This document shows, in pieces, positions 5,267 through 52,226 of a DNA stretch of 64,000 bases. A model generated the notes under the pieces. That model was not told the DNA's origin, made no database searches, and worked only from the letters and a program-made list of their open reading frames with translations. Numbering within the stretch: the stretch's first letter is position 1; every line of letters begins with the position of its first letter. Source of the DNA: Apoderus coryli. Its lineage: Eukaryota; Arthropoda; Insecta; Coleoptera; Attelabidae. The stretch covers positions 23,849,135 through 23,913,134 of the forward strand of contig OU452202.1 in assembly GCA_911728435.2 (NCBI GenBank). Direction: 5' to 3'. The position numbers and the translations under genes are program-made.

Positions 5267-5307
5267 GCCATACATGTTTCAAGGTCTAAAACCTCATCAT
5301 CAGTGGC
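5267..5307 (-). ncRNA. Hammerhead ribozyme-like motif, type A, intact core
   Basis: On the minus strand stem I GCCA is followed by CUGAUGA, one extra U, a 5-bp stem II (GAGGU / ACCUU with one G-U), then GAA and the self-complementary stem III ACAUGU. The cleavage-position A follows, and UGGC closes stem I exactly. All invariant core residues of the hammerhead consensus (C3 U4 G5 A6 N7 G8 A9; G12 A13 A14) are present. The odd points are the extra base between A9 and stem II and a stem III with no loop, as in minimal type I hammerheads of Penelope-like elements. Cleavage activity is inferred, not shown. Confidence 0.75.
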
Positions 5308-5362
5308 TTTATATAATTTAGAATTTTGAAAATTTGCTTGATTGATTGATAAATTATATAAA

Positions 5363-5407
5363 GCCACTGATGATGAGGTTTAAGACCTTGGAACATGTAG
5401 ATATGGC
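5363..5407 (+). ncRNA. Degenerate hammerhead-like motif, type A
   Basis: This is the inverted partner of the minus-strand motif at 5267. It keeps stem I GCCA/UGGC, CUGAUGA, the extra U and stem II. GAAAC is changed to GGAAC, and four bases (GATA) are inserted between the cleavage position and the stem I 3' strand. It is probably inactive in cis. Confidence 0.6.
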
Positions 5408-5479
5408 ACTGACTGTTCAATTATATAAGTAAATTTTTATTTATATTATGAAAAGTAAAATATCAAAAACTCTTCAAAC

Positions 5480-5503
5480 TAATAATAATAATAATAATAA
5501 TGA
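5480..5503. repeat. (AAT)n tail of the LINE at 5504-7575
   Basis: A run of AAT triplets lies immediately downstream (on the minus strand) of an AATAAA-type signal. It is the microsatellite 3' tail of the adjacent minus-strand LINE. Confidence 0.8.
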
Positions 5504-7575
5504 TTTATTGTGAAAATGTAGAATATATACAATTGCACAAAAAGGATAGAGATTTGGCCAATGCCACTCTTCCACTCTTCCTTAAAAAAACATATACAAA
5601 TAAAGAAAGAATGTACAAAACAAAAACTCTTAAAACTAGAATAAACAAATTTTCATTTTAAATTAATGTAAAAAGTTAATCACACTATGAATAAATTCTG
5701 AGCTTCAATTGTCTCTGAAATAATTCCAATGGCAAATCAATTATATCAATACATTTATTTAGCAGTAGTGAGGTCATATACGAGAAACTGTCATATGCTT
5801 AGGGATAGTAAAGGAATCAATACGTACATTAACATCATGAACATTAGAACGTCTACACAACAACTTATACAAATATTGAGGGTCACGAGCATGGTATATC
5901 TTATGTTGCAATGAAGTATATAAATACTCATATCTCACATCCAACTTTGGCTCACCCAATCTCTCAAAAAATGGAGTGACATGTGCAGCAAAAGAAACCG
6001 TGCAAACAAACCTTATACAAGAATTCTGCACTCTCTGCAACTTCATTTTATTATAATGAAACAAAAAATAAAAATATACCGGAAAACAATATTCCAAATG
6101 CGGATAAATAAGAGCTTTAACCAATTTAAGTTTAGTAGGCTCATCAACCAGGTGTTTAAGATGGTATATCGAACGCAATTTAAAAAGTGAATTCCTGCAT
6201 ACATTGCCACAATGCTCGTTAAAATTTAGCTCAGAATCCACGATTACTCCTAGATCTCGAGCTTTATGCATCCAGGGGATAACATCATTGTTAATCTTAA
6301 CATTAAACTCTTGAGTAACAAAACTACCGTGGCGCTCGTTGCCAATGCACATTGCCACCGTCTTCCTAGAGTTCAGGAGTAAACCATTGTTTAAACACCA
6401 ACAAGAAAACTGAGACAGCTCTCCATTTATTAGATCAATTGCAGTCTCAGCACTGGCTAGGGGAAGAGACAAATATACCTGGATATCGTCCGCATAGAGG
6501 TGTATGGTAAAGAGCTGGAATGATCCCACAATGTCAAATACATAAACAGAAAACAACAATGGTCCAAGAATAAATACTCCCTTGTGGAACACCACTATTG
6601 GTCACCAAAAAATCTGAACATTTGCCCTGCAATTTCACCCGCTGTCTTCGAGCACACAGATAACTTCTGAACCATGTCAACGACACACCATCAAATCCAA
6701 GGTATTTAAGCTTGGCAAGCAATAATTCAAAATTAACACGATCGAAAGCTTTACTTTGATCCAGCAGAACAAGTATTGTTAACATGGATCTGTCCATGGC
6801 GGTAGCAAGGTCACTCATGACGCTCAGAAGCGCGGTGGTTGTGCTGTGCTTCTCCCGAAAGCCTGATTGAATAGACGGCAAAATGCTATTCTCACGTATA
6901 TAGTCTAAAACTTGACCACCAATTATTCGCTCAAATATCTTCGACATTGCGGGAAGTATGCTAATTGGTCGCAAATCATTACAAGTTACAGGAGACCGAA
7001 CTTTAGGTAGTGGAATCACATCCGCCATCTTCCAAACATTAGGAAATGTCCCTGAACTGACAGAGTCATTGAAAATATTACAAATTATATCCGCACAATG
7101 TGGTATAACTAAGCGTATCATTTTTATGTTAATACCATCAACACCATAACACTCAGATTTAATTCTGCTAACACATCTCATAATATCCTGACAGTCGATC
7201 TCCTTAATCTGAAAAGCTAAGCCGTTCCGAAATTGATTATTATTAAAAAAATTTAAAACTTCATCACTCGCCTGTGACTGACCGACAACATTTAAAAAAT
7301 AGTTGTTAATTTGATCCGGGTCCTGAAACTCATCCGGTAAGTCATTTGAGTTTTGATTACTACAAACACCCCAACGAGAAAAATTTTTCCACATCGCTTT
7401 AGAGTTAGATTTACAAGCTTTGATTGTTTCGCGAACATAAGCCTTTTTTTCTGCTTTAATGGCCTGCTTTAAAAAATTTCTAATGTCAACATAATACTGT
7501 CTAGATGTATCAGTTCTGTATTTAAGATATCTTTTATGAGCCTTTTGTTTTAAACGAATCATTTCATCAATCAAC
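5504..7575 (-). pseudogene. LINE ORF2 (reverse transcriptase), nearly complete RT domain, frameshifted
   Basis: The minus strand carries the longest LINE reading frame in the window, about 630 codons in two overlapping frames (7574-6534 and 6595-5774). In order it shows a basic linker with AIKAEKKAY, then the RT fingers (ECYGVDGINIKMI and PISILPAMSKIFERII). Motif A follows as LLDQSKAFDRVNFELL, then GVPQGSI, ILGPLLFSVYVFDI, YADD at about 6485-6496 and the LGVIVDSELNF block. The C-terminal LYPHLEYC-like and QRVQNSCIRF blocks come last. A 4-bp insertion between GVPQGSI and LGPLLF near 6580 shifts the frame. A second shift near 5774 separates the last ~30 codons (ending near 5685). The endonuclease is missing, so the copy is 5' truncated. 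The tail is (AAT)n. It appears related to the LINE at 61.8-62.9 kb. Confidence 0.9.
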
Positions 7576-10177
7576 TAGGTACTTATATCTCCGCGTAGTC
7601 CCAGAGAGAAGAGCAAAACGAAAATCAAACTAAATCCGACCAAGCTGCACTTGTCATAATAATATTTAAAAATGACAATTACTAATTAGATCATTAACAA
7701 ATTTACCTTATCTCATTACGAACTAATTACATCAGGAGAAAAAAACTATATAAAGTGTGTTCTCTCTATCTACAACAAACTACTTACTCTATTCATATTA
7801 CGTACTATGTAAGTATGAGAAATATTTTTTTAGAAATAAAAGAAAAACAGTGAATAGAAACATTATTAAGTAATAACATGAGAAGTGAACTGACATCTTT
7901 TCATTGTCGTTCGCAAAAACAAATGGGTTCTATTGTAATAGACATAAAGAAAAAAAAACTTAATAATGATAATGGAAGAAGTATTTAGGTCAATATGGTA
8001 TTTATGACATGTAATGAGACTCCTTGTTCTCTTACTACTTTGTAAGAAATGAAGAATTATAAAAAATAAGTAACCAGTATGTGTGGCCTCTGTATATTAT
8101 CAGGCTGGCACGCGAGCGTATTTGCGAAAGAAATAATTATTATGCTTATTAATATTATTGCAAATAAAAATAAAGATATAGGTACATATCTATCTATTTA
8201 AGAATGTTGTCTAAATTTCTAAATCAGATATCTTGGGTTCAGGCGGCAGATTACTCCCTTTTTAATAGTGCAAATTTGCTCAAATAAATTTAAAGAAAAT
8301 GTAATAAAGAATCGATTCAATTGTTTATTCACAATGGAAATTTTAAAGAATAAGTTTGTCAAAAATTTGGATTACTTTCGAAAGTTTTCGTTGCATGATA
8401 TTTTACAATTTAAGAAAAAATTAAGGCTAACTCCACAAGAATGCATTAAGTCGCTTCGATTAACTTTTAGTAGAGTAGTAGAGAATTAAACAACAATCTA
8501 CTGTATGTATCTCAAGATGAACCAAAACTCACAAGAGTTGTCCGCACATGAAGTACACCCAAAAATGAATGCTTGCAACTTTGACTGTAGACCGACTTCA
8601 CTATAGTCAACTTCTGTGGAAAAAGAAGCATTTTGCCGATGTGCTAAACCTTTGTGGTCAATTTTTAAATGTTTGTCAATATCGCCATTAAATAAATATT
8701 GATGATTACTGGCAAGTAAAATATTAATTACAAAATCAGGACACCAAATGTATTCATGCAAATTGCATAATCTGCAAAACAAAAATGAAGTTCACACAAT
8801 TAAAAATACAATAGACCATTTAGCACTTTAATTAAACAAAGGCTACTATTAAACAACAGAATAGGAATAATATAGTAAGAATCCGTTTTATCTAGATCAA
8901 TCTCTTGTCGCGACGTACTATAAAATTTTACTGGAGCAAGGCTGTTGCAAAAATATATAATTATTTTGTGAAAACTTATATAAATATACCTAGCGCACTT
9001 AAATATGATTATATTTTATTTACCTTTGCAAACAACTATATCTACAGTGAGGACCTTAAGTCACACATAACTCTGAAAGAAATTTTTGTTGGAAAAAATG
9101 CTCACACATCATCTCTCTTTGTGGAAAGTTTTTTTTTTTCATTATCCATAAGAATTTTACAATATTTTATATGTAACACAAATACAAATTGGGCTATCCT
9201 CAATCTGTCCATGTTTGTGTCGCTATTGTGAATGACGGTTGCTATACAATCGAGATTAGAATTAGAAAAAGATAGAGACTTCCGGTTTTCACTGTTTCCT
9301 TTATTTTTAGATGCTCTTTCCATTTAGTGAATACTAATAGCACCATTCCATTTGATTTTTCTAAGAAAACTAACAAAATCAGAAATATTGTTGTATAGCT
9401 CCACCTAGCGGCTATATATGAAAAATAAATAAAAGCACCAATACTTTGGTTGATACACCCAAACATTACCTCTATGCTGAGCCTAATTTTATTAAAATCG
9501 GACTATCCATAAGAAAGTTAGATAACTTTTAACAAACCAACATTCTCCGGCTCGTCCACCATGTATTGATAGAGAAAAATGGTTTATATGAAAAAGTTTT
9601 AGAATTGTAGTTAGATCATCCTCATTAAGTTTAACACGTAATATAAGTATATTTTTAAATAAACAGTGTTTTTCAATTTAGATTTTAGAAAACTAAAACT
9701 ACTGCAGCGATTTCTCTTGTCAGCTTGGGTATCTATACACCCTGTACAATTACGTTTACCTATTATACTACACGACTGACCTGTATAACTTTCTGTTAGG
9801 TCAAAAAACCGGCAAATTGTATCGGAATTATGAGCGATTTTTGGTATTTACTGTAACAAGTAAACATCACATTTTAAGGTTAAAGAAGTATAAAAGTTAA
9901 TTGTTTTTGTGTTAGAACTGCAAGAGCACGCGATTTTACTATACGTTGTATTGTTTGTATTACTTATTGTTGTTTTAAGAACGTATTGTCTTCAATTATT
10001 CAATTAGGCTTTGTGTTAATTAGTTAATGCCACATCTTTTAGGATGATTTAGATTACTATTGTTTTTAAATATGATGAATGACTGCTAATTATCACTTTG
10101 TGTGAGTTCAACTGTGTGACTAGGTGCGTTTGCACACGGGACAACTTGTTTTTGACTAGACTCTAATTGTCAACTAG
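7576..10177. other. AT-rich unassigned DNA
   Basis: No recognisable gene. A 73-codon frame at 8268-8489 has no recognisable domain. A short segment with AGAGACTTCCGGTTT (about 9274-9288) recurs near 51428-51440, and a TATCCATAAGAAAGTTAG segment lies near 9505. Both look like scraps of a dispersed repeat. An inverted TACAGGGTG-type terminus (CACCCTGTA) occurs near 9738-9746. Confidence 0.5.
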
Positions 10178-10345
10178 TTGGATACGCGTTTCTCCAGCCA
10201 GCACATTTGGGCACAACAAAATCCTCACGCAATGTTTTCTGTGAATGTTTACATTGGCATTATGAACAGACAACTAATCGGTCCCAATTTCTTTGAGGAA
10301 CTGTTGGCGCGAGCTGTCCATTTAAATTTTTACAAAGGATACTTG
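10178..10345 (+). pseudogene. Tc1/mariner-like transposase fragment
   Basis: About 50 codons read QHIWAQQNPHA, then FSVNVYIGIMNRQLIGPNFFEELL and a LNF...KGYL tail. This matches the block between the first and second catalytic aspartates of insect Tc1/mariner-superfamily transposases, usually seen as WSDENPH... then FSVNVWCGII...LIGP-F. Conserved order and spacing make the match convincing despite its length. No TIRs were seen; the RTE-like LINE starts 70 bp downstream. It is a short dead relic. Confidence 0.7.
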
Positions 10346-10409
10346 AATTTGAAAAGGTCGTCAGTGTGTTTGTTAAATCAAAATTATTTACTAATATACC
10401 TTTAACTTA

Positions 10410-12100
10410 CACAAAAAACTAAAAGAGACTACCGGAATACATAAAGGCAGAGCAGCAAATGTACTGGCCGACGAAAACAATCAGATAATCACCGATGACC
10501 GGGAAAAAATTGCAATCTGGGAAAGATATATTAAGGAACTTTTCTACCAGGACAGACCTACAATTATGAACGAAGATAACGACCACTTGACAGGACCATC
10601 AATCACAAAAGCGGAGATAGAAAAAGCGATACATAACTCTAAAATCAATAAAGCAACTGGACCGGATGGGATCCCATCGGAAATATTGAAGATATTGGAT
10701 GAAAGAGGCATTGAAGTTCTACACAAAATATTTAACATCGTATACGAAACAGGACAATACCCACAACAATGGCTAAGTTCAACATTCATCCCTCTACCTA
10801 AAAAAAATAATGCTAGAAAGTGTGGAGACCATCGACTGATTAGCCTGATGGGCCACACTTTGAAAGTATTTCTAAAAATAATTCATCAGAGGATCTATAA
10901 AAAATGCGAAAGAGATATCAGTAGCTCACAGTTACAGACAAGGGATGGGCACAAGAGAAGCGATAGTGGCCACGCAAGTCCTTGTACAGAACTGCCATGA
11001 TGTGAGAAAATACATATGCCTTTGCTTTGTTGATTACGAGAAAGCATTTGACCGAGTTGAACATCCCAAACTAATGCAGCTCCTCAGGAATCTTGACATA
11101 GATCAAAAAGACATTAGATGTATAGAAAATCTATATTGATACCAGACTGCACAGATTCGGCTCAATAATGAGCTGTCTGATGATATAGAGATCCAGAGGG
11201 GCGTGCGACAGAGATGTGTCTTGTCCCCGCTTTTGTTCAACCTGTACTCGGAGGGGGTCTTCCGGGAAGCATTGGAAGATGCGGAGATCGGTATTAAAGT
11301 CGACGGAGTGTGGATTAATAACATACGTTATGCTGATGACACAGTGCTCATCACTGATAACATGCAAGACTTACAAAGACTGATAAACACAGTCGGTCAA
11401 CATAGCAGATTGATGGGTCTAAACATAAACACTAAAAAGACGAAGTTTATGATAATAACAAGGAACCTAAATGCGTTTGAAGACTCACAGTTAACATTCA
11501 ACGCAATGCGCATAAACAGAGTGAACAAATTTAAATACTTGGGCATGTGGTTATCTGAAGACTGGACCTCTGATATCGAGGTCAAGAGTCGCATCGAACA
11601 AGCCCAACAAGCATTCCTAAGACTGAGGAGAGTAAATAGTTGCTCGGACTTCGATCTTAGTCTGAGGTTGAGATTCTTAAAGTGCTATGTGTGGTCAGTA
11701 CTTCTCTACGGGATGGAAGGTTGGACCCTTAAAGTCAAGAACATTAACAAATTGGAAGCGTTCGAGATGTGGCTTTACCGCAGAATGCTCAAGATACCGT
11801 GGACTGCAAGAATAACAAACGTAGAAGTTCTGTCCAACATCAACAAAGAACGTGAACTGTTAACCACCATAAAAAAGAGAAAGACTTCATATCTGGGGCA
11901 CGTCATGAGGAACAAGAAGTATGAGTATTTACAGTTGTTGATCGAGGGTAAGATAGAGGGCCGTAGAGGGATAGGAAGGAAGAAATTGTCATGGTTGCGG
12001 AACATAAGACAGTGGACAGGAATAAATGACATACAGACCCTAATTCACACCGCAAGAGATAGAGAGGAGATGGAAAATCTGATCGCAAACATCCATTAGT
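10410..12100 (+). pseudogene. RTE-like LINE reverse transcriptase, 5' truncated
   Basis: It encodes most of an endonuclease-reverse transcriptase of the type often annotated as RTE (HmRTE-like) in insects. The blocks in order are ITKAEIEKAIHN, NKATGPDGIPSEILK, PLPKKNNARKCGDHRLISL, CFVDYEKAFDRVEHPKLM (motif A), GVRQRCVLSPLLFNLYSEGV (motif B), RYADDTVLITDN (catalytic box, 11326-11360), KTKFM and KYLGMWLSEDW. The C-terminal tail is AFEMWLYRRMLKIPWTARITN then YLGHVMRN...KIEGRRGIGRKKLSW. The last 298 codons (11203-12099) are open. A frameshift near 10950 and a TGA in place of the expected Trp near 11138 break the frame. The catalytic YADD is intact. Endonuclease is missing because of 5' truncation. 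Confidence 0.9.
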
Positions 12101-12107
12101 GGATAGC

Positions 12108-16269: not shown

Positions 16270-16289
16270 ATGTCAAAACGAGTCACAAT

Positions 16290-20729: not shown

Positions 20730-20751
20730 AGCAACAACAACAACAACAACT
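20730..20751. repeat. (CAA)n microsatellite
   Basis: About seven CAA triplets in a row. Confidence 0.9.
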
Positions 20752-23180: not shown

Positions 23181-23636
23181 CGAAGCAATTCAATAATGCA
23201 AGATCATCCAGATCAAGAACAGTACATCAAAATATTTTGATAAATTAGAAGTTTTATCTTCTGTACTTTTCATTATTTTAAGGGAGCCAATTTCCCTGGA
23301 TTCAAAATTATACAATTTGGAATAAGACTAGAAAGTCTTAAGCCTTATTTCTACGCCACTTTTACACTATTTCTATACATTTCTACACAGAAAGAGAAAT
23401 TGATTGCCCCAACAGTGTTCACTTGTCTTCTTCAAAGGAATGACGAGGCACGATGCAAAATCTACGATCTCTTTTTTAATCGGCGTATATCTTCAACTTG
23501 CAATAATTACAACGTCTTTGTATCGAAATATCTTTTTAAGGTAACGATCTACATATGTTTATTGACAAAAGAAATTGTAGTACATTTTCCTGTACATTTT
23601 TTTTTGTATATAATAAACGTGGTTTTTAATAAAATA

Positions 23637-24129
23637 TATACAAGGTGTCTCTAAAAGACGCGGCAATATTTAATGGGGTGATTTCTTAAGTCATTCTATA
23701 AAGAAAGCTCCCATATACAAGGTGTGAACCTTTTTTTTTTGTTGTAAATAACGATTTTTTTTTTTAATTAAGTCAAATATCTCCTCACCGATTTCTTTAA
23801 AATTTGGCAGCGCTGTTTCTAGAAATAGGGAGCTTATATGGCTCTCACTAGATCAAAACTATTAGATAAAAGTTATTGACAACAAAAATGTACGCCACTG
23901 ATGATGAGAACACAGTTTCTCGAAACATGTATGGTAGCGTATTGTAGTTTTTTAATAAATCACAAACAATAATCAAAATATCAGTTTAGATGTTAACCAT
24001 CATATTTATACTCCTGATAACTATAAAATCTGGGAACTGGCTTACAAGTTTTGAAAATGGATAATACTTTCTGATTGGACAACTTACTTCTTAAGTTTGT
24101 CTGCATGTTTTATGGGGACACTCTGTATA
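23637..24129. mobile_element. ~490-bp element with TATACA-GGTGT termini, copy 1
   Basis: The left end TATACAAGGTGTCT and the right end GGACACTCTGTATA are inverted copies. The left 240 bp (GCGGCAATATTTAATGGGG, ATTTCTTAAGTCATTCTAT, CCGATTTCTTT, GCTTATATG) is clearly homologous to 53529-53730. A hammerhead motif sits at 23890-23940, just past the part shared with that second copy. No protein is encoded. Confidence 0.6.
23890..23940 (+). ncRNA. Hammerhead ribozyme-like motif, type A, best example
   Basis: UACGCCA opens stem I, then CUGAUGA and one extra U. Stem II is a perfect GAGAA/UUCUC hairpin, followed by GAA, the self-complementary ACAUGU (stem III) and A at the cleavage position. UGG-UAG-CGUA closes stem I with seven pairs around a 3-nt bulge. 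Every invariant core residue is present. A bulge in stem I is what natural hammerheads use for loop-loop contacts that speed cleavage. This is the strongest candidate for an active ribozyme in the window. Activity is inferred from structure only. Confidence 0.8.
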
Positions 24130-24527: not shown

Positions 24528-25878
24528 ATGTATATAGTGCCTAGGCAAAATTTTTGAAAAAATACTCTTTAAACAATTAGCCAACTATTTTGAAAGAAAT
24601 AATTTATTTTCTCCGAAACAACTTGGATTTAGACCGAAACTTAACACCGTTTCAGCTATAGAAAACTTTATAAAAGCGCTATAACCGCTTTTGAGAGTAG
24701 AAGGCTTGTGGGGGCTTCTTTTCTTGATTTAACAAAGGCGTTTGATTGCGTCTCACACGATATCTTGTTGGGTAAACTGGAGCGATACGGTATGAGTGCG
24801 AATTCGATTCGTTTGCTGAGTTCCTATCTCACTGGTAGGAATGTTGTAACGATGTTTGAGTCAAAGTCTTCTCAGCCCTTGTGGAGCTCTTGTGGAGTCC
24901 CACAGGGCTCGGTGCTCGGACCTCTATTGTTTTTGATTTTCATTAATGATTTACCGCTACATCTGCCATGCTCTGACCTGACATTGTTTGCTGTTGAATT
25001 GTCGCGTGATGTTCTGGCCTCAAGTATGATTAATTCACAGTCGAGGGCTGCTGACTGGTTTGCAGCTAACAAACTCTGTATGAATGCCAATAAAACAGCC
25101 ACTAAAATATTTACATTACGTGAGACGGATGTTGCTGTTTCTGATGGTCTGGTAAAGTTTTTGGGTGTCACTTTGGACCAAAAGCTAACCTGGGCGGGTC
25201 ATGTCGAGGTTACCATTGCCAAGTTGTCTAAGGTTGTGTTCATGTTGCGAAGCTTGAAGGGTGAAGTATCTTTTAATGTTTTGAAATCAGCATATTTTGG
25301 CCTTTTTCACAGTGTGGCTTCATATGCTTTGTCAATTTGGGGACACTCTTGTCATGCTAGTCGGGTATTCGCAGTCCAAAGACGAATAATGACAGATTTA
25401 AAGTTTAGAGAGGATGTCGGACCTAAATTTAAAGAATTTAAAATAATTACACTCCCGTGTCTCTATATCTACAATTCAATTATATATGTGAAAAATAATT
25501 AAAATCTGTACATAAGGCATGATGAAGTTCACAACCACAATACCAGAAACAAAAATTACATTCTTCCTGAATATATAAGGTTGGGTAGAAGCAGAAATTC
25601 TGTAAATTATTATGGTCCCACATGCTATAATCATTTGCCAGATAGTTTGAAAACACTGAGCCTTGCAATCTTGAAAAATAGATTAAAAAACTACTTAATT
25701 GACAAGGCTTTTTACTCCATTGATGAATTCCTCAGCACTGACTTTCTGTTTTGATTGAGTTATATACATTTCTATGTTTTATGTTGTGTTATGTAATATT
25801 TTAGTATTTAATATCACTTGTGTAAACCTTTTTTGGTAATGACATGTAATGACAATAAATAAAAAAATAAATAAATAA
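24528..25878 (+). pseudogene. LINE copy 1 of the 24.5/44 kb family, catalytic box deleted
   Basis: It starts in the RT fingers (KIFEKILFKQLANYF, about 24548) and runs through QLGFRPKLNTVSAIENF and motif A (DLTKAFDCVSHDILLGKLE). CGVPQGSVLGPLLFLIFIND and LTLFAVELS follow, then the LGVTLDQKLTWAGHVE block and the C-terminal SIWGHSCHASRVFAVQRR. Compared with the inverted copy at 43.5-45.1 kb, a 21-bp in-frame deletion near 24990 removes the FADD catalytic box and five following residues. The polymerase cannot work. A stop near 24680 and a frameshift near 25390-25500 also break it. The 3' UTR has TGACAATAAAT and ends in an (AAAT)n tail at 25855-25878. Confidence 0.9.
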
Positions 25879-32706: not shown

Positions 32707-33014
32707 TCAAGAGAAAATTGCAAAGATATTTCGAGGTGTACGCAGTGATCCAGCTAACATCATCCACCGACATTTTCCAAATTTGTCACTGCCTTACATT
32801 GAAACCCTGTGTTGGGAGATTGGAAAAAATATTTGAGGCCAATACTCCATAGGTTAAGGATGGCGATTTGCACTTCTGGTTGAAAATCCAATATAAGCAA
32901 ACATATGAGGGAGTTATGGCTAGTAAAAATTAGCCGTCCACAACTTTTTCGAAATTCAGCATTGATATTTCATATTTTATATTCTGCTTTTAGGGTCCTT
33001 CACAAATACGAATT

Positions 33015-33266
33015 GTTAGATTATTTCATAGGGTAGAGGTTAAAGAAAACACCAGAACTATTCAAAAATGCGACGTTTCGCAGCTATATTGCTGCTTCCT
33101 CAGGCACTTAAGCGTAGTCAGGTACAAAAAAAATGAGAATGAATGTGATTCTCATGGTATGTACGTATCGATAAATGTTTCATTGAAGATCAATTTTATT
33201 GTTTGTTTTTTTTTTGTACCTGACTCTGGTGTTTTCTTTGTCCTCTACCTTATGAAATAATCTAAC
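33015..33266. mobile_element. 252-bp foldback unit with a hammerhead motif in one arm
   Basis: A 41-bp inverted repeat (33015-33055 and 33226-33266; blocks GTTAGATTATTTCATA, GGTAGAGG and AAAGAAAACACCAG) encloses a second inverted pair (GTCAGGTAC plus A-run, 33117-33133; T-run plus GTACCTGAC, 33206-33224). In the right arm the two blocks are adjacent. In the left arm they are separated by a 60-bp segment holding the hammerhead motif. Confidence 0.85.
33066..33109 (-). ncRNA. Hammerhead ribozyme-like motif, type B, intact core
   Basis: On the minus strand AAGUGC opens stem I, then CUGAGGA (position 7 is free in the consensus), an extra A, and a perfect 5-bp stem II (GCAGC/GCUGC). GAA, the self-complementary ACGU stem III and a cleavage-position C follow. 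GCAUUU closes a six-pair stem I (one G-U). All invariant core bases are present. It differs from type A in the base after A9 (A not U), the 2-bp stem III and the cleavage base. Confidence 0.75.
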
Positions 33267-33852
33267 AGTTTCATATTTTAGTTGAAATAAACATTCAGAA
33301 ACAAAGATATCATAATAACGAATTCACTACAGCAAATCGCGGTAATTACGTAGTTTTATACCGTATTTATAAAGAAAACGAGGCAAGGCGTTTGGTGTAT
33401 GGTTGCAGCGCGTTGCTTCTTTGAAAATACAAAGTTCGTGCTGGTATAAGCCTCTGTGTATACGAAATCTAGAGTTAGGTAGGTAAATCGTATACTATAC
33501 TTCGCTCATTAGATGCTCACGTGCGACCTTTCACCTCTGACATCATCCATACACACGAGCCCTCTCCTATTATAATGATTCCATTTAATTTCATTTTAAT
33601 TTATTTCTCTACGGTAAGAAAATCGGTGTTGAACTGAGTGGCTATTTTAGAATTATTAATCAGTATAATTTAATTTGATACAAATGAATATTATGGGATG
33701 TAATAAAATCAAACAACTATGATGCAATATCCAATAAAAATTTGATGTACTGAAGAAATAATCCTGTTAAATTGTGGAGTGGAACTGTAATTGTAATAAA
33801 ACTATACAGGATGGCCATTTTTTTATTGAACAGTATTGCATTATGTAAACGG

Positions 33853-35540
33853 TAAGAGAAAATCAGTGAAATGGGGAACAAGTTGCAGATTCAAATACTC
33901 TTTAGTAATTATTGTCCGAGATATTTACAGGGGTTTTCAAAATATCTCCAAAAAAAACAAAAATACTGAAATTTCAATTAACTATCTTTCTACAGCTTGT
34001 ATCGTTAGAGCTACGTTATGGTTTAGTTACGAAAGTTCCGTGGCGACGAGCTTTTCCAATAGGTGCAACCCCTTTGAAATTTTTAATGAGAGGCTATGTT
34101 TTTTTTTTCCGGATTATTGAATGTATTTTGATTTTGTAGCGAACTGTGAAAGCCGTAACTCCGTATCACAACAGCAAACACAGTTATAGTGATTTCTCTT
34201 TAACTATGTTAAACAATCGTGTTAGCCATGAATGTCAAAAACTGACAAAATCGCGTTATCCTTGACAGTTTCTTGACAGTTCATTCAAGCAATTAATACG
34301 TTGCAAAATGCACTGATATTCGAGAGTAGAGAAGCAAGATATGTATGAAGTCTACATAACATCACGTAGAAACAGAGCTTTAGCTTTGCAGACCTATTCT
34401 CGCAGTTATGCTGAAAGAAGAGTAATATTTTACAGAATTGCCCGCATGACAACAACAGGATGTGTTGAATGCAAAACAAACATGTACGTTAGACGTTCGT
34501 TCGTGAACGAGATAAATGTACTGGCGCATGTAGATCTCGGTGCTACGCTGTCAATCAGAGCTATTATTGCTCTAGAGTGTGGCATAAGTACAGCGGTGTA
34601 ATACTATTTGGTACTTGCGGGTGACTAGAAACATGAATTATTATTGTCAACACTGTCAAAGAAGCAATGCAATTCAAGAATAACGCTATTTTGTCAGTTT
34701 TTGACATCCATGGCTAAACATTTGTTTACTTTCCCGCACCATTTGAGCTAAATTTTGGAGTTTGAGGGAGTCCTAGAATGTACACATTAGTTTTTGGTGG
34801 AAATCGTTTTAGCCCAAATTTTCATATAGCAGTAGGGGTCGTGATACATCATTTTAAAGCATTTTTTATCTGCTTTACAGCGGTAGGTTACTGTTGATAT
34901 TTACCCCCATAATTCTCGATAAAATTACGATTAAAATTTCACCAGTTAGGTAGTTATAACTGTTATTAGAATACAATAAAGTAATTTGATAAAGGGTATT
35001 TGGCGTCACTGATAGAGCTCTGGGAATATTGTTTTATTTCTAATTTTTGAATAAAGTAGTTAGTTTGTTAGGTGAGTTCATTGGAAATAATTAAAAAATT
35101 CTGTCTCGTTACGCAGGTCATATATTTTTGATTATATTATATCTTATGAGAAAAGTTTTGGGGAGACACAACCGATTTTTTAACATAGTTAAAGAGAACT
35201 GCCTATAGTAACTGTTTGAAATCAAAAACTATCCAATAATCCGGAAAAAAGTCATAGGCGTCCGTTTAAAATTTCAACGGGGTAGCACCTATTGGAAAAG
35301 CGCGTCGCCACGGAATTTTCCTAACTAAAGCATATCGTAGCACTAATGATACAAGTCAACTTTGATCCATAACTTGTCTTTCTTAGATGAACCAATAGCG
35401 AGTTAATATCAAAAATGCAATTTCACTATTTTTGGTTATTTGAAGATCCCTGTAGATAATTTGCAAATCATAAAAAGTTATCAAAGATCTTTTGAATCTG
35501 CAACTTTATCCCCATTGAACCGATTTTCAAACTCTTTCGA
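33853..35540. mobile_element. Long-TIR DNA transposon derivative, right arm interrupted
   Basis: The left arm (33853-34290) and right arm (34650-34730 plus 35172-35540) are inverted copies. They share AATGGGG-A..A-GTTGCAG, CCGTGGCGACG-GCTTTTCC, AATAGGTGC, TTCCGGATTATTG, CTCTTTAACTATGTTAAA, GTTAGCCATG and TGTCAAAAACTGACAAAAT. A ~440-bp segment (about 34735-35170) splits the right arm between the TAGCCATG and TTAACATAG blocks and is absent from the left arm, so it is probably a later insertion. The 360-bp centre carries a transposase N-terminal fragment. The ends overlap a TATACAGGATGG terminus at 33804. Confidence 0.75.
34341..34601 (+). pseudogene. Transposase N-terminal (helix-turn-helix) fragment
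   Basis: An 86-codon frame reads LALQTYSRSYAERR...IFYRIARMTTTGCV... then NEINVLAHVDLGATLSIRAI and a final ECGIS. This order resembles the paired helix-turn-helix DNA-binding region of insect Tc1/mariner-like transposases (A..Y..RYP.RR..F.RL...L..TGS, then V.A.V..NP..S.R.IA.E.GIS). No catalytic region follows before the right inverted arm, so this is an internally deleted element. The assignment rests on pattern and on its position between matching TIRs. Confidence 0.6.
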
Positions 35541-35551
35541 CAAGACAAGAA

Positions 35552-35776
35552 TATTTAGATTCGGAAATTGTTGGGATGAGACTCACAAATTAATTTCTCA
35601 AATGAATGAATCGCTGTTGAAAACACTTGTCTTCTAGACGATTTTTGTATTATATGTGTTCCCTGAAAAAGGCAACAGTTGTACGTTGCCGAAACGTAAA
35701 AAAATGTTTTGACATTAAATAACAAATTGTTATTTAGTCTGTGTGTAATCCCAAGAATTTCCGAATCTAAATTTTG
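35552..35776. mobile_element. Foldback unit flanking a hammerhead-like motif
   Basis: Inverted arms of about 35 bp (35552-35586 and 35743-35776; blocks TTTAGATTCGGAAATT and TGGGAT) enclose the type B motif at 35661-35700. The layout is like that at 33015-33266, but the arms differ in sequence. Confidence 0.75.
35661..35700 (+). ncRNA. Degenerate hammerhead-like motif, type B
   Basis: It reads CUGAAAA, an extra A, a perfect 6-bp stem II (GGCAAC/GUUGCC), GAA, ACGU and A. Invariant G8, the base thought to act as general acid, is A, so cleavage is unlikely. Stem II and stem III are well preserved. Confidence 0.55.
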
Positions 35777-43542: not shown

Positions 43543-45060
43543 ATCTTTTTTATTTATTCTCATTACATGTCATTACCAAAAAAGGTTTACACAAGTCATA
43601 TTAAATACTAAAATATTACACAACACAATATAAAAACATAGAAATGTATATAACTTAATCAAAACAGAAAGTCAGTGCTGAGTAAAAAGCCTGGTCACTT
43701 AAGTAGTTCTTTAATCTATTTTGAACATTGCAAGGCAAACTATCTGGCAAATGATTATAGCATGTGGGACCATAATAATTTACAGAATTTCTGCTTCTAC
43801 TCAACTTCATATATTCAGGAAGAATGACTTTTTTGTTTCTGGTATTGTGGTTGTGAACTTCATCATGCTTTATGTACAGATTGTAATTATTTTTCACATA
43901 CATAATTGAATTGTAGATATAGAGACACGGGAGTGTAGTTATTTTACATTCTTTAAATTTAGGTCTGACATCCTCTCTAAACTTTAAATCTGTCATTATT
44001 CGAACCACTCGTCTTTGGATTGCGAATACCCGACTCGCATGACAAGAGTGTCCCCAAATTGACAAAGCATATCAAGCCACCCTGTGAAAAAGGCCATAAT
44101 ATGCTGATTTCAAAACATTAAAAGAGACTTCACCCTTCAAGCTTCGCAACATGAACACAACCTTAGACAACTTGGCAATGGTAACCTCGACATGACCCGC
44201 CCAGGCCAGCTTTTGGTCCAAAGTGACACCCAAAAACTTTACCAGACCGTCAGAAACAGCAACATCCGTCTCACGTAATGTAAATATTTTAGAAGCTGTT
44301 TTATTGACATTCATACAGAGTTTGTTAGCTGCAAACCAGTCAGCAGCCCTCGACTGTGAATTAATCATACTTGAGGCCAGAACATCACTCGACAGTTCAA
44401 CATCGACAATAGTTGAATCGTCTGCAAACAATGTCAGGTCAGAGCATGGCAGATGTAGCGGTAAAACATTAATGAAAATCAAAAACATTAGAGGTCCGAG
44501 CACCGAGCCCTGTGGGACTCCACAAGAGCTCAACAAGGGCTGAGAAGACTTTGACTCAAACATCGTTACAACATTCCTACCAGTGAGATAGGAACTCAGT
44601 AAACGAACCGAATTCGCACTCATACCGTATCGCTCCAGTTTACCCAACAAGATATCGTGTGAGACGCAATCAAACGCCTTTGTTAAATCAAGAAAAGAAG
44701 CCCCCACAAGTCATGGGTTAAAGTTTCCGCTATACTGGTAAAATATGTAGTGAAATCATCAGCATTAAGATTTGTTAATGATTGTTGGGTAGTAGAACTA
44801 TCCCGTTTATTGTTGATAATATCCCATGTAGCCCTGGCAATATTAGAACCATCTGCAATATACGTATCGTTCGCATTTTTTTGCCATTTTAGTATGAGAT
44901 CTATACGAGTTACGATAAGAGCGAACCATGTCTTTTATACCTTCGATTTGTGGAAACTGTGTAGACAGTCCTCGCAGTAGTTCTCTGACATTGATTCTAT
45001 TAGATTTTGTTACATCATCAGTGTTTCTACTGATAGACTAGAGGGACAATCTTCCGATAC
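43543..45060 (-). pseudogene. LINE copy 2 of the 24.5/44 kb family, internal deletion
   Basis: The minus strand carries the same LINE as 24528-25878, very similar to it and in opposite orientation. From 5' to 3' it reads a linker segment (NANDTYIADGSNIARATWDI, about 44830-44890; NADDFTTYFTSIAETLT, about 44715-44765). An abrupt junction to GASFLDLTKAFDCVSHD (motif A) follows, then CGVPQGSVLGPLMFLIFIN, LTLFADDSTIVDVELS (catalytic box intact, near 44417-44428), LGVTLDQKLAWAGHVE and WGHSCHASRVFAIQRR. The RT fingers between the linker and motif A are missing, removed by an internal deletion near 44710. A frameshift lies near 44070. The last 136 codons (44065-43655) are open to a stop. The 3' UTR matches copy 1. 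Confidence 0.9.
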
Positions 45061-45769
45061 ATCTGTGGCGTGCCAATACGCATTTTTATTAAAGAAATTA
45101 CGTAAATCCTGTAATTATTTCAGTGCTATAATCCAATTTCAACTCACTTTAATAAAATCATGTGTCTCACACAACAAATTGCAGCGTCACGATATTATTT
45201 ATTCAAGTTATCGATTTTTCTTGTCTTAAAATATGCATAAGTAAATAAAAGTGTTCAATCTCAAGATTTCTCCGGAAACTGTACGTCCTGTATATAAGTA
45301 CGTATAATTTCCTTTTCGAAGTGTATTGTACGACTTGACATCAAAACAGAAGATGATGTTTTGTGAAAAATTATTATTTTCTGTCACATTGTAGGCCTCT
45401 AAAGTGATAATACAATAAAAGTAGGTGCCCGCAATTATTTATCCTCTATATACAATTCGTTTCATTGTCCTCAAAAGACATTATACTCAACTTTTTTATT
45501 CTTCAGTATAAATAAATATTGATTGATTGAAAATATAATAATAATGGTCAGATTACTATTGTGTCCTTCTCTATAGAGACAGCTTTTGTAAACTGCCTTT
45601 TAAATAATGAAAAATCAATAATGATGTGCAGTTATTGACTAAAATTAAATTGAAACGATTTTATTGAACGCCAGAGTTGATTGCTCACAATTGCTAAAGT
45701 ATTTTCCTTGATAAGAATTTTTTTTCGTGCGTTTGATGCTATTTTTCGTGTCAGTTTTATTTTCTTAAA
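45061..45769. other. AT-rich unassigned DNA
   Basis: No gene recognised. A CGTCCTGTATATAAG terminus-like sequence occurs near 45286-45300. Confidence 0.5.
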
Positions 45770-45965
45770 AACTTTCAAAGCCCTTGACACCAAAGATCAT
45801 GATCGAAGTTTTGTATTATGGTTTTGGTAATAATTTGTTCTTGTTTTATTTATATTTATCATCTATGCATGGAATGTCTATTATTTCTTGTGTCTCACAA
45901 GGGTCTATATGGCGTCCGCTACTTTTTATATTATACAGTAATCGCATTATTCGTCTTTTTTATAA
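45770..45965 (+). pseudogene. Short LINE reverse transcriptase scrap
   Basis: The plus strand shows FKALDTKDHD (motif A, normally KAFDTVDHD). About 75 bp later SCVSQGSIWRPLLFILYSNR appears (motif B, normally GVPQGSILGPLLFILYIND). The frame shifts between them and there is no catalytic box. Two motifs in order make the call sound despite the length. The family is not resolved. Confidence 0.7.
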
Positions 45966-46160
45966 TTAATAGTTTTGGACTTTCTAATCCACAACCTTTT
46001 AATCCCAAATTGTATCACATTTTTTATTACATGTTTTCTCTTTCAAACTGTTATCCTGATTATATAGATTATAGACCACCTATTGAAAAACTAATAAAAG
46101 AAAAAGGGGATCAAGAATCAGACTAAAATATAATCCAGACGTTATTGTGCAATCGATAGT

Positions 46161-46487
46161 TTGATATTTCCGTACTTCTCGAGGGTTTTTACTTTGAAAG
46201 AGCACTTTTGCATTATTTTTTATCTGTTTTCTATACTATTAATTACCAGGAATACTAAACTTAAGAGATATGCTGTTGCATTTATATCGGGCAATGAGAC
46301 ATTACCCCTAGATGCAGTAAAAGCTCAGATCACTCTCATGTTCCCTTCCACCACAAATTATGCATTGAATTGCTTCGTTCGCAGAGCGTCAAGAATAGCG
46401 AATTCTTGTGCCAATTGCTATATCGAATTATTTGCTCCATTAGGGGAGTTTTCTAAGGGCGTCAGGCGCAATGGTGGGATTTCCTAG
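46161..46487 (+). CDS. Unrecognised 108-codon open frame
   Basis: The second half (from about 46260) has more balanced base composition than its surroundings. It reads KRYAVAFISGNETLPLDAVK..., then NCFVRRASRIANSCANCYIE and FAPLGEFSKGVRRNGGIS. I do not recognise a domain. The first 30 residues are hydrophobic and look like translated AT-rich sequence. It could be part of a decayed element or chance. Confidence 0.2.
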   Translation: MIFPYFSRVFTLKEHFCIIFYLFSILLITRNTKLKRYAVAFISGNETLPLDAVKAQITLMFPSTTNYALNCFVRRASRIANSCANCYIELFAPLGEFSKGVRRNGGIS

Positions 46488-47504
46488 TAATACTGATTTT
46501 TAATCCCTTTTCTTGTTTTCGTTAGTTTTTGGTTTAGTGTTAGATTGTCCTTTATACATATTTTACCTTGTATCTTCTGTTAATTTTCGTTAATTATATT
46601 AATTGTGCTATTGTTGGTGATTATTCACGGAATTCGACACAAAAAATATTTTGTGCCGCAGATCTAGGATGCATATTTTGTGTAAATCTTCATTTTGACT
46701 AAGCAGCACTAGAACAATATTATTTAAATGATGACCATTTAAACTTCAACGACAAAAAATACTATTAGTTCAGCAAAAACAAACTACACTGTCAGATTAA
46801 ATAAATAATCTGACACTTCTAAGTTCATAGGCAATTAGAACTGGTACTAAAAAAACACCCAATCGTGTATAGAACAACTATTTGGTTCTATATTTAATAA
46901 ACACAACTTTGATCCTTTTAAGGCTTCTGGGACACTCTTTATAATATAAGAACAAGTGCCGGAAACCGTCAATAACCATGTCTAATAGTAGACTTTTTCA
47001 CATACTCCTTTTAACAAAGTTAAATGAGAAAAAATAAATTTTATGTGATGTTAAAAAACATAGAAAAATATAATTTTAATATACATTGTAAGCACGTTAT
47101 ATTTATACGATATCATTAAATTATAAGGTTAGTTTTTATGTCTTTCTTATATTTTAAAACAACACAATGATCTACTTAAATGTAATATTTTTTGAATAAT
47201 AATAATTATTTAATTTACTTTAAAATTTAAGGCTGAAGGACTTCAGTCAATGGCCTTTTGGGGTTTTGTTCCAATAAATAATAATAATAATATTTTTAAT
47301 TGTTCGGGGAATTATAATTTTTAATGTCAATGTGTGAAGGCCTGCATCTTTTATTTTTAATATAAATTTGTGATTCCAAAAATTCAGTTCTAAGTATACA
47401 GCAATTCTGCCTACAAGAATTTTTAATACAATTATTCCAAAACGCCGTCTGCACAACAAAATAAACAAAAATATATATTGTTCAATTCAGAACATTTTGT
47501 CTGC
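46488..47504. other. AT-rich unassigned DNA
   Basis: A (TAA)n run lies at about 47275-47291, next to a CCCCAAAAGGCCATTGACTG stretch (read on the minus strand) that looks like part of a dispersed repeat. No gene recognised. Confidence 0.5.
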
Positions 47505-47544
47505 GTCAGACATGTTTCGAGAACATAGTCTCATCATCAGTGAC
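47505..47544 (-). ncRNA. Hammerhead ribozyme-like motif, type A, intact core
   Basis: On the minus strand GUCA opens stem I, then CUGAUGA, an extra U and a 4-bp stem II (GAGA/UCUC). GAA, ACAUGU and a cleavage-position C follow, and UGAC closes stem I exactly. The compensatory change relative to the 5.27-kb copy (GCCA/UGGC there, GUCA/UGAC here) supports pairing in stem I. All core bases are present. Confidence 0.8.
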
Positions 47545-48829
47545 TTTTACAACTTCACTTCCGTCTAAATAATGTCAAAAAAATAGGAGAAACAGTTTGT
47601 ATGAGGTCTTATCATTTTGTGAAAAAATTTGTTTAATAAAATTTATTATTTTTACATGAAACTAACTTTAATTAAATTAACAAAAACGTTTAGAATTTAA
47701 ATTGTTGTTGATACCAGTTAAGCGCGTGATTAATCAAAAATTGAGGTTAAGGAAGTGGTTTTACAAAAATAATTAAGGTTAAATACGTACATACAAAATC
47801 TTCGTAAAAATTAAATTTGTAGAATAGTCTAAGCTAGATTTTGTGGAACATACGTCGTTTTATTAATCTAAATAATCATCGCTCCTCTACGATAGATAGA
47901 TTACTTCATTAAGTATATAATTTTTAGTTTAAAAATAAGATTAAAAAAGTACTTTGTCCACAGAAATTATAAAATACCCTTATTTCATTAAGTATAAGTA
48001 GGTACTTTGAGGAATAATGCGTAACCGTCCTCAGGGAGGGAGGCCTCAACGAGTTAATTATTTTTTTTATTCTTGAACTGTTCTAGAACTTATCAGTATT
48101 ATCAAATAACTGATTCAATGAAATGTGATAATGAAAAACTCTGGATGAACACAAGTTTAAAGTAGAGACCGAAACGGTAGATCAAGCCAGTAACCTCTAA
48201 ATATATTTACCCAATATAATCATCAAAAAAAATATTTTTATTGTTTTAAGTGTGTTAAGAATAATAAAGTAGGTGTTTCAAAAGATATTTCGCTTACTCA
48301 ACAGAGGTTATTTATAGAAAAAAGATTCATCGAAGATTTTCTGAAATTCTAGAGCAAAATTTCGCAATATAAAGCTTACTTACAAAAATTTTTAATTACT
48401 TGGTATGCGGTATCGCGATTTGTTTATTGTATAGTTTATGTTAGGCAGAAATCGACTTGTTTTTAACAATAAATATTTCTTACCTTTTAGATTTGTTTCT
48501 GTTTCCAAAAAAATGATATCGCACTTAGTTGGTTTGATTCATAGAGAAAATATTCACAAATATCACAAAGTAGAACAATCCAAAATTCATATCACTTAAC
48601 GTATTCAAAACAATGTCATTCTTTTATTTATTATTTAATATCAATAAATACAGAAATTGTTAATGACACTGATTAGTTCTAATGTAAATTAATCCATTCA
48701 CTAACAAAACTGTGTAAAATTACATTAGTTTTCACTATATAAGTAATGATAGTTTTTATATTATCGCGCAAGATAAGTACTTTATTGTTTTAATGATTGG
48801 GTTTAGTATGGTAAAGCAAGAAAGATCGT
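47545..48829. other. AT-rich unassigned DNA
   Basis: No gene or repeat recognised. Confidence 0.5.
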
Positions 48830-49075
48830 ACCGTACGTAGTGCACGTGGGGCGGCTGTTCCACAGCAGAACAGCTATCGTCCGTACGTCTTAAGATGTAA
48901 CCAAGTACTGGACCAGCAGCGCTACGGTCGACTATACAAGCCGCGATATCAAGCTGGCACTGAATCTGCTCTAGTTCTGTGACTTAAAGATCGAAAGTGT
49001 TTCTCCGGCTGTTTGTTGTTTGTGGATGGGACCCGTAGTACGTCTCTCTTGTTTTGTTTGTTACCGTTTAGGTAT
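48830..49075 (+). promoter_or_regulatory. GC-richer CpG-containing island, possible promoter/first exon
   Basis: It stands out from the AT-rich surroundings, with many CpG dinucleotides, CACGTG (E-box) beside GGGGCGG (GC box) near 48844-48854, and a GCTGTTC/GAACAGC dyad at about 48855-48875. AGGTATTA near 49071 could be a splice donor. No coding frame is visible, so a non-coding first exon or an enhancer is the most that can be suggested; the strand is a guess based on the donor. Confidence 0.35.
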
Positions 49076-49652
49076 TAATACCCCAGTGACTGGTTTTGTT
49101 GATTTTTTTTCTTTCGTTGTATGTTGTTAATGTGTCGTGGTCAGTTCCTATATTATTAATATTGTTATATTATATTTCAGTGGACAGCAGTAGGAAAAAA
49201 CATTGTTGTCATAATGAATTGCGGTAATTCAGAAGGATGTAGGTTTGTTGGGATTTTATAGAGTGATGGTTTATTGATGTTTTGGGCAAATGATTGATTA
49301 ATAGGATAAAGTGTTTGTCGTTCTTAGGTTTGAATAGTTTCCTTATATAAAACTACTATTTGAGTTCTTAACCCATTAGTGCCCGTAATTTTTGTCTGTT
49401 TTAATTAGAACAAAAACACGTTAGTTGCTATTTATATATGTGAAATAACATTGTATACGCAAAATTTAAAATTTATTTATAATAAAAGTACCAAAAAAAT
49501 AGTGGCACAGCTATTAGCATTTTTCAAAGTCCTTATTCCCTAAGAATCCACCACTATTTAATATTCTTTGGACAAGAACTTATACAATTAATTAAAATAT
49601 TTTTTTTTAGTGACAAAGAAAAGTCAAATCTCCACAAAAATAAACGCAATAG

Positions 49653-49696
49653 TCCAAACATGTTTTGGAACTCAATCTAGTTCCATCATCAGTGGC
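49653..49696 (-). ncRNA. Hammerhead-like motif, type A, core mutated
   Basis: On the minus strand GCCA, CUGAUGA, an extra U and a perfect 6-bp stem II (GGAACU/AGUUCC) are kept. G12 is A (AAAACAUGU) and the cleavage base is U. Both changes should abolish cleavage. It lies inside the piggyBac element. Confidence 0.55.
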
Positions 49697-50029
49697 GAAA
49701 AGAGAAACTTTACAAAATCATTCCTTTAAATTTCTATCGAGGTCATTTCTGTGGCCACCAGGCACATACAGTAACATAAGAGAAACATTACATAAATATT
49801 TAAAACTAAATATTTTTTGAATAATTACATCAGTTATTGATAAATATAATAAAAAGGTATGTTCTATGGAAATTTCTAAAGTATGTTTTTGCAGGTATTA
49901 CACTCAAAACTGGTGCGGTTAGAACATGTTTTACATTTTGTCTCTGTTTCACTACTTTGGACTATCAAGTGATTTTGTTCATTCAAACGTAACTAATTGA
50001 CAAATGGTGATAATGCGCTTGATGATGGC

Positions 50030-50450
50030 CCTGGTTTCATTGAAGGGTGCCCATAAATATAAAGCAATAAGTTGCCGTCTGAATTCGAGTAGCGGCATAT
50101 TATTGTTTTCACACCTTCTCCATAATAGCCCAACTTGTAGCTTAGGTTGATCAATTGAACAACTGAAGAAAGACCACCACTACTGTTTAGTCCTTATTGA
50201 AATTCCATAGCTAGACAGACCTGATCATTCAAAATCGACGCCTCCCATATTTTTGTTATAAGCGGCATTTGAATATGAATTTTACTTTTTTTAGTTATAG
50301 AATATCTCTACATTTTTCAAAGGAAGCATATGATTACAGCAGTTTGATAATACAGTTACAATGGAATTATCATTCCCCCGCACAAGTACTAACTTTCCAT
50401 CGGTTTTGAGTTCCATTGTTCCTCAGCTTGTTTTAGCAACAAATTATACT
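50030..50450 (-). pseudogene. piggyBac transposase C-terminal remnant
   Basis: The minus strand reads a degraded SN-like block, then AAYNKNMGGVDFE (50230-50268). This is the family signature YNK.MGGVD..D, containing the last catalytic Asp. YGISIRTKQ-WWSFF and the closing NNMPLLEFRRQLIALYL follow. The order and spacing are those of piggyBac DDE transposases. Stops and small shifts (a TAG within WWW-type tryptophans) disable it. The N-terminal two thirds, with the other two catalytic acids, and the cysteine-rich tail are absent or unrecognisable. Confidence 0.8.
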
Positions 50451-51018
50451 CAGACATATTTGATTCTTTTGAAACTCTATTTTTCCGTAAAGTACCAGTA
50501 ATAATTTCTAAATTGCGTACTGAACGTAATAAATACCTACTGGTGCGTGTTTGACAGTTCAAATACTAAAAATAGAACAAGGCCAACTGCGCATGCATAT
50601 CTTTGAAATAGACATCATATCTGCCCACTGGCACGTTTATGTGCCAATGGTTTTTTTTCCTTCATAATAAAATTTATGTTATAAAAAAACTTATGGTTTT
50701 GTTGAATATCGTTACAATGAATATTTATCAATAACAAAATGAAAAATGTAACAACTAGTAAAGTAATTAAAAGTAGAAAAAAAATGTATATTTACATCAG
50801 TGCAGACAGGTGTAGTAAGATGCTTTAGAGTGGGTTAGGTTTTCATTAATTTCTCAAAAATCTAGCACTGTAAAATCTAAAAAAAAATTATGACCTGTAA
50901 ATAACTACGCAAGGAACAGTTCAGTATGTATCTAGAACAGCTCAGTTTGGGGAGTTTTGAAAAAATAAAATAAAATAACGCTGGCACATTTATGTGCCAA
51001 TGGGCTTTAATGGGTTAA

Positions 51019-52187
51019 TATATTAGAAATAAAAATCTAATTTTTGCGAATTGATAGACAGTCGCCAAAGATCCGACTCTTAATAAACAATTAGCTCAGT
51101 TTAGTTTTTCCTCAAAAAGTATGTTGAAACACACGTACGAAGCTTTCAGGTTTTATTTTGGTTAAAAGAAATCCGGGATTATTGTAATTTTCTATAAAAA
51201 TTCCAAAAATGACAGCATTCATAGATGCAATGCTTTGCATTTATTTTTATTTATAGGAAAACAAACGAATTAAATAAAGAAATAAACAAAAGAGCTAATT
51301 TTGATTCTACTTGACAAAAGCCGACTAAATCTCATTGACTTGTGGATCAAGGACTATAAACCAATAATACTAAAAAAAAAAAACTGAAAAAGTTTATGCG
51401 GTTATAACCTAAGTTTGGAATATGATAGAGACTTCCGGTTTGAGCTATTCTTGTTCCTTGTCTTAAGCTTATTTAAACAAAGCCTTAAAAATGGTCTGAC
51501 CTTATTTATATTTTAAAGAAATGGGCTATATCAGTTACTTCGATATTGAACGCTACCTAAGGTATAGGTACAACTTTTAAGAAATATTTGAATTTTAAAT
51601 GAAAGGGATAAATTACTTTTCCAACGAGCTTAAGTAGACTTCAATCGAATAAAGGGTTGCAGAAATATCGCACATTTTCTTTTATCCTTGCTACCTTTAT
51701 TTTAGGACATAGGTCAAAATGTTAGACACGGAATAAAGCAAGATTTCCAAACTGAACCTATACCTAAAAATTAAAATTGCGCTTTCTACTGGTGGGTTTT
51801 GAAGTTAACCTATTTTGATCAATTTTTCATAGCTACTTTTGCTAACAATTTTTTTCCTAAAGCTGTGTGATAGTTTTACCGGACATATCTTTCCTATTTT
51901 AGGCTGATCATACGGAAATACAATATTAGTAAAACAACTTTGAGGAGATAGATATATTAGATTAAGCGACGAACTTTTATTTAATTTTGCAATTGTTATA
52001 AAAGACAGCTCTAAAATATTTACCTCCAAATAAAACTTACTTAATCATGTAATATTTCTTTCCTTATTCTTAAACCTTCTTATTTATATTTAAGACTTTT
52101 AGATTCTTTGGGTTTAAGGTTATCAAAAATACAATTATAATTGCGCATGTTTATTATACTGTCAAAAAAACAACTTTTACATCTAGT
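51019..52187. other. AT-rich unassigned DNA
   Basis: No gene recognised. The AGAGACTTCCGGTTT block shared with 9.27 kb occurs near 51428. Confidence 0.5.
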
Positions 52188-52226
52188 GCGACGTTTCGGT
52201 GCGATGATTTGCACCTTCATCAGGCT
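52188..52226 (-). ncRNA. Hammerhead ribozyme-like motif, type B, intact core
   Basis: On the minus strand GC, CUGAUGA, an extra A and a perfect 5-bp stem II (GGUGC/GCACC) are followed by GAA, ACGU, C and GC. The core is complete, but stem I pairs only over two bases before mismatches, so folding depends on flanking sequence. Confidence 0.65.

Follow-up and report, generated by a model that had tools for sequence, protein, structure and literature searches.

Minimal type I hammerhead ribozymes are a known component of animal genomes, many of which hold thousands of them, mostly dispersed in non-coding DNA and in some cases within the pseudo-long terminal repeats (pseudo-LTRs; pLTRs) of Penelope-like elements (PLEs) (PMC7761336, 2020). 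The subject of this study is a 64,000-nucleotide stretch of the genome of the beetle Apoderus coryli (contig OU452202.1, positions 23,849,135 to 23,913,134; hereafter the window), in which a preliminary description had noticed a dispersed family of hammerhead-like RNAs. These motifs are, with high probability, minimal type I hammerheads in the pLTRs of Penelope-like retrotransposons, of which only short remnants are left in the window: a complete palindromic insertion at 33.1 kb, an eroded inverted pair at 5.3 kb and four single copies. The system is of a known kind, and a rich example of it, rather than a new family; since dispersed minimal hammerheads in non-coding DNA had already been described (PMC7761336), the novelty first seen in the family does not stand.

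The closest described relatives are the minimal PLE hammerheads that act as dimers (Cervera and de la Pena 2014; Lunse, Weinberg and Breaker 2017). As reported in the cited parts of PMC7761336, they share with the present copies the type I order, a very short or absent stem III, its palindrome, the location in PLE pLTRs and the mostly dispersed, non-coding copies; no difference has been established, in a comparison that leaves aside the constant extra base after A9. The layout of PLEs in print comprises direct and inverted pLTRs, a tail of ~31 bp, duplications of 8–10 bp and palindromic head-to-head junctions (PMC3846280; PMC8969392). The Penelope elements of the rotifer Adineta vaga are alike in all of these features, the tail being optional; the passages of PMC3846280 that concern them mention no hammerheads, whereas nearly all PLE ends examined here were chosen for carrying one. 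Metazoan non-LTR retrozymes likewise have type I hammerheads within non-coding repeats, but these are direct tandem repeats of ~150–450 bp with canonical helices, in contrast to the inverted PLE ends and loopless stem III found here (PMC7229834, in the part cited). Newt and viroid hammerheads also have a stem III too weak for a monomer; they have other carriers, and their dimer action has been measured, whereas here it is inferred (cited passages of PMC6155905 and PMC6466107). In the literature passages searched, which did not include the original minimal-hammerhead papers, inverted pLTR pairs were not found linked with hammerheads, and no novelty is claimed for that link.

Hammerhead loci in the window

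The hammerhead motif is real. The strict descriptor used here requires CUGANGA, 0–1 extra base, stem II (4 bp or longer), GAA, a stem III palindrome whose first base is A, H17, and stem I (2 bp or longer). Five loci pass it, named by first core base and strand: 5303-, 23898+, 33103-, 47540- and 52223-. All five have the type I invariant core (CUGANGA...GAA, A15.1-U16.1, H17), as had been claimed for these copies, and the descriptor found no match in 60 simulated first-order Markov windows, nor did any of 120 permuted cores give one. By itself, CUGANGA is present 38 times in the window (18.4 expected). Stem I has 4 bp at 5303-, 23898+ and 47540-, 6 bp at 33103- and 2 bp at 52223-, and the pairs read earlier at 5.27 kb (GCCA/UGGC) and 47.5 kb (GUCA/UGAC) are correct. 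One extra base follows A9 at each of the five (U in three, A in two), and the palindromic stem III is ACAUGU in three and ACGU in two. Locus 49692- is laid out in the same way but has A in place of G12.

A covariance model, R1, was trained on 56 copies from one contig of the genome (C1), none of them from the window. It recovers five ACAUGU loci in the window (E <= 1.7e-6), the next-best candidate having E = 0.057. The two ACGU copies lie outside R1 (33103- has E = 0.9; 52223- is absent at E <= 10), and so rest on the descriptor and on close relatives elsewhere in the genome. Together these make seven supported loci, five with a full core and two decayed (49692- and 5367+), in place of the nine to ten first counted:

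5262 to 5311, minus strand: hammerhead, ACAUGU form, full core, stem I GCCA/UGGC (descriptor; R1, E = 4.2e-14)
5359 to 5412, plus strand: decayed hammerhead, inverted partner of the 5.26-kb copy, with GAA reading GGA and 4 extra bases before stem I (R1, E = 1.7e-6; inverted repeat 5263-5411, 79.7%)
23890 to 23940, plus strand: hammerhead, ACAUGU form, full core (descriptor; R1, E = 2.6e-13)
33066 to 33109, minus strand: hammerhead, ACGU form, full core, 6-bp stem I (descriptor; identical ribozyme in the genome stretch L210)
47500 to 47548, minus strand: hammerhead, ACAUGU form, full core, stem I GUCA/UGAC (descriptor; R1, E = 2.2e-13)
49648 to 49700, minus strand: decayed hammerhead of the ACAUGU form with A in place of G12; the PLE terminal motif GTGGAGATTTGAC comes after it (descriptor layout; R1, E = 2e-11)
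52188 to 52225, minus strand: hammerhead, ACGU form, full core, stem I of only 2 bp (descriptor; 87% identity over 147 bp to L212)

The Rfam search that had been proposed as a check returned no match in the window at gathering scores and no hammerhead family at E <= 10. Rfam was equally silent (no hammerhead at E <= 1) on all 20 motif-bearing genome loci tried, 20 of 60 fetched stretches, so its silence in the window says little; it appears blind to this hammerhead class in those loci and was dropped as arbiter. Matches to miRNA families at 5278-5391, below the gathering scores, cover the inverted hammerhead pair and were read as that hairpin.

Covariation and abundance in the genome

Conservation of the core among genome copies proves nothing, because the core was the search criterion; the stems were not. 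They were compared in 60 stretches of C1 (L140-L199), fetched around places among the 100 listed of 8701 genome matches; these stretches contain 76 copies, among which 56 cores are distinct. Of the 76, 74 have U as the extra base, 74 have A, C or U at H17, and 61 have a stem II with 4 or more base pairs. Among the 56 distinct cores, 82.2% of stem cells are paired against 61.0% after shuffling, and 150 cells are changed on both sides against 50.7. The covariation score for stems I and II together is 0.611, compared with 0.222 for shuffled copies and no more than 0.175 when slid. Double changes occur in 9 pairs, which is no excess (74 of 500 shuffles reach that number). Selection on the RNA structure of stems I and II, argued earlier from the window copies, is therefore supported by the genome copies, in which the ends lie in stem I as type I requires. 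Most likely this selection acted in active elements before insertion and not at the window sites.

Predicted folding is less uniform. When each RNA is folded in isolation, both stems survive in the minimum-energy prediction for three of the five full-core copies; 47540- prefers another predicted fold (-9.7 kcal/mol, compared with -4.8), and in 52223- stem I is lost, which cautions against too simple a view. The palindrome of stem III, 6 or 4 nt long, has no loop and could pair only between two copies, with predicted self-duplex energies of -4.6 and -1.7 kcal/mol.

The ACAUGU form, searched as CTGATGAN{8,30}GAAACATGT, occurs at 8701 places in the 428-Mb genome against 5 for the reversed pattern, and the ACGU form, CTGANGAN{8,30}GAAACGTCGC, at 351 places against 0 for its control. 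The window has three exact ACAUGU copies where 1.3 are expected per 64 kb (P = 0.14); it is ordinary for this genome, and the density that had been put forward as new is not unusual. Protein hits with a named source point to insects (Photinus, Graphocephala, Callosobruchus, Onthophagus and Diaphorina). Some 9000 exact copies, with many stem II sequences and young inverted pairs, would make a natural library for studying the inversion of PLE ends and for finding any minimal hammerheads that have kept their cleavage activity.

Penelope-like carriers and the window remnants

Neighbouring copies in the genome tend to lie head to head. Among the 100 places listed of the 8701, eight of nine gaps of up to 1 kb run from a minus-strand to a plus-strand copy and none joins copies of the same orientation; the proportions are 13 of 18 for gaps of up to 3 kb and 15 of 29 for gaps of up to 10 kb. 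For the ACGU places listed, 11 of 14 gaps of up to 10 kb have this order, as read by eye. An inverted repeat spans the hammerhead region in 12 of the 20 stretches fetched first, a proportion that does not estimate frequency because these were chosen largely for their pair-like look. The left hammerhead begins 42–77 nt inside the repeat end in ten of the twelve, the exceptions being L145 (10 nt) and L149 (470 nt). Some of the repeats are almost perfect palindromes (L148, 3.1 kb at 97.9%; L208, 4.0 kb at 99.5%), and the pairs in L208-L210 are young, with arms 99.5–100% identical.

The proteins of such elements identify the carrier. L208 and L210 have a frame with hammerheads at both inverted ends, in which GIY-YIG lies above the Pfam cut-off and RVT_1 is matched below it, and the 391-aa frame of L147, similarly flanked, has RVT_1 above the cut-off. 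A reverse transcriptase (RT) and a GIY-YIG endonuclease (EN) are thus found in one frame in relatives of the window copies, in L147 by alignment only for the latter: its C-terminal part aligns with homologues where Pfam finds GIY-YIG, suggesting that the domain is present. In L210/L215 an inverted end is followed by direct hammerhead copies 3079 bp apart, 99.4% identical over 2886 bp. Direct and inverted pLTRs, an optional tail and short duplications all occur among these relatives, and the pointer of the preliminary description to PLEs is borne out.

The tail signature follows 15 of the 76 hammerheads and precedes none, and the terminal motif follows 49 and precedes two; both expressions were written after inspecting some of the same copies, with the upstream side as control. 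Nine of eleven inverted elements share a flank word of 12–15 nt, which may include a few element letters and is longer than in each of ten mismatched comparisons (L143, L145, L146, L149 and L156 were left out of this test). In L142, L143, L144, L147, L148 and others the tail ends, ~100 nt past the hammerhead, in ATGGA(C/T)TA(C/T)TT, where the PLE frame may start. Within the ribozyme, another AUG arises from the extra U that follows A9; the start codon of a lizard PLE begins after G8 (PMC11167929, in the part cited), which would fit an A9-U-G. Just past the PLE end of L147, at 3037-3143, lies a match to U6 spliceosomal RNA (87.9 bits, well above the gathering score), and L149 carries inverted copies of a 293-aa frame without a Pfam match (1066-1947 and 6460-7341) inside a large inverted repeat with two hammerheads.

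In the window, pLTR homology, tail and duplication are found together at the 33.1-kb copy, and homology only at the others. The 33.1-kb insertion has these parts:

32979 to 33270, minus strand: PLE-end insertion of 292 bp in which two inverted arms derived from pLTRs flank a short centre; only one arm has a hammerhead (arms 33004-33056/33225-33278 and 33116-33133/33208-33225)
32979 to 33010, minus strand: 32-nt PLE tail at one end of the insertion, matching the tail of L210/L215
32970 to 32978, no strand: target-site duplication TCATATTTT, copy 1, identical to 33271-33279
33271 to 33279, no strand: target-site duplication TCATATTTT, copy 2, identical to 32970-32978

Its ends were set by inspection, from the L215 tail and the end of the other arm, and the chance of a 9-bp match was not computed. 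Locus 33103- is 93.9% identical over 131 bp to the PLE end of L210. The hammerhead arm has ~60 bases, ribozyme included, that the other arm is without, and these were presumably lost from the latter. The asymmetry was also considered as proof of a two-sided insertion and rejected, a central deletion in a palindrome looking alike. Under permissive scoring, with no shuffled control, the alignment of 47540- and 49692- with PLE-end loci runs well beyond the ribozyme (128 bp with L197 and 158 bp with L149, respectively; 49692- also with L147 and L148), while that of 23898+ and 5303- extends beyond it by a few dozen bases only. Lacking an RT/EN frame, the window copies are remnants and not whole elements. 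Palindromic insertions made of pLTRs only show how hammerheads with no adjoining Penelope gene can arise.

Proposed hammerhead action and alternative explanations

In the PLE account, tandem pLTRs would give a read-through RNA with two sense hammerheads one element length apart, which could cut out a unit-length RNA. The two ribozymes would share one stem III, as in a dimeric hammerhead, because a palindrome of 6 or 4 nt cannot form a hairpin within one ribozyme; such sharing is the published explanation for newt, viroid and PLE hammerheads (PMC6155905, PMC6466107, in the parts cited). A transcript of an inverted insertion would carry the ribozyme together with its antisense, an arrangement expected to favour folding into a long hairpin.

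Several observations weigh against the PLE account. No PLE protein was found in the window by tblastn with one genome frame and 36 homologues as the 37 queries (lowest E value, 0.33); the absence first reported is thus true, but it is no novelty, since the copies are related to PLE ends and 54 of the 60 genome stretches L140-L199 are also without a match, with one at E <= 1e-5 in the other six (L132-L139 are places already inside this set). Only four of the 15 ACGU loci L200-L214 have a PLE protein match (E <= 1e-3). L212, 87% identical to 52223- over 147 bp, has none, so that this copy is tied to PLEs by ribozyme type alone. GIY-YIG escapes Pfam in L147 even at E <= 10, the duplication test gives a tie for L153 and a failure for L214, and the 5303-/5367+ pair shows no clear ends and no clear duplication. 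According to the cited part of PMC11167929, the hammerhead of a lizard PLE is inactive without protein and dispensable for insertion in vitro, and public RNA-seq data show no ends at its cut site.

A further reading within the PLE account is unlikely: the palindromic stem III would be a dimer-linkage site, by which two PLE RNAs joined through a shared hammerhead stem III would enter one protein dimer and be reverse transcribed from both nicked target strands, giving head-to-head inverted pairs. This would fit the lizard PLE protein, which cuts and extends both strands, together with the dispensability of cleavage for insertion (PMC11167929, same part), and the ribozyme would then matter as a template-pairing device as well as, or more than, as a cutter; a published rival for inverted pairs is self-priming (PMC3846280, in the part cited). 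The alternatives to PLE ends fare worse. Very improbable is a family of metazoan non-LTR retrozymes, in which type I hammerheads sit in short direct tandem repeats and spread takes place through small circular RNAs: the type I topology, A+T richness, non-coding character and thousands of copies agree with it, but among the 100 places listed of the 8701 none of the nine neighbour gaps of up to 1 kb is same-strand and no direct tandem repeats of ~150–450 bp are seen, stem III is loopless and the carriers are PLE ends.

Hardly any probability attaches to regulatory ribozymes domesticated by the host and kept at the window sites. A full core is kept in five of the seven copies, but it has decayed in two; PLE ends make up the flanks, the density is that of the genome background, and a host gene context did not come to light. 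About equally improbable are chance matches or a non-ribozyme hairpin repeat, for which the silence of Rfam and the folds that keep both stems in only three of five copies could be cited; chance is refuted by the simulations and permuted cores, and against either stand the covariation of both stems and the genome count of 8701 against 5. Penelope-like pLTRs remain by far the best explanation.

Other repeats were noted in the window. At 33858-35775 lie several nested inverted-repeat arms of 32–111 nt, unrelated, as far as examined, to the adjoining hammerhead insertion. Two copies of a LINE-type reverse-transcriptase element stand in opposite orientation at 24705-25866 and 43546-44710, with pieces 93–98% complementary. 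A dispersed repeat starting ATATACA(A/G)GGTGT occurs at 23636-23706 and 53528-53598 (83% over 71 nt; ~237 bp at 71%), and 60833-61792 holds local direct repeats of 70–183 nt with ~90% identity. A pattern scan of other collections gave at least 12 viral and at least 119 prokaryote stretches; two of the 131 fetched loci pass the descriptor (L044 and L117), the chance level not having been computed, and the one from the prokaryote genome scan, at L117:107 (+), passes it in full with a 4-bp stem I and a 5-bp stem II.

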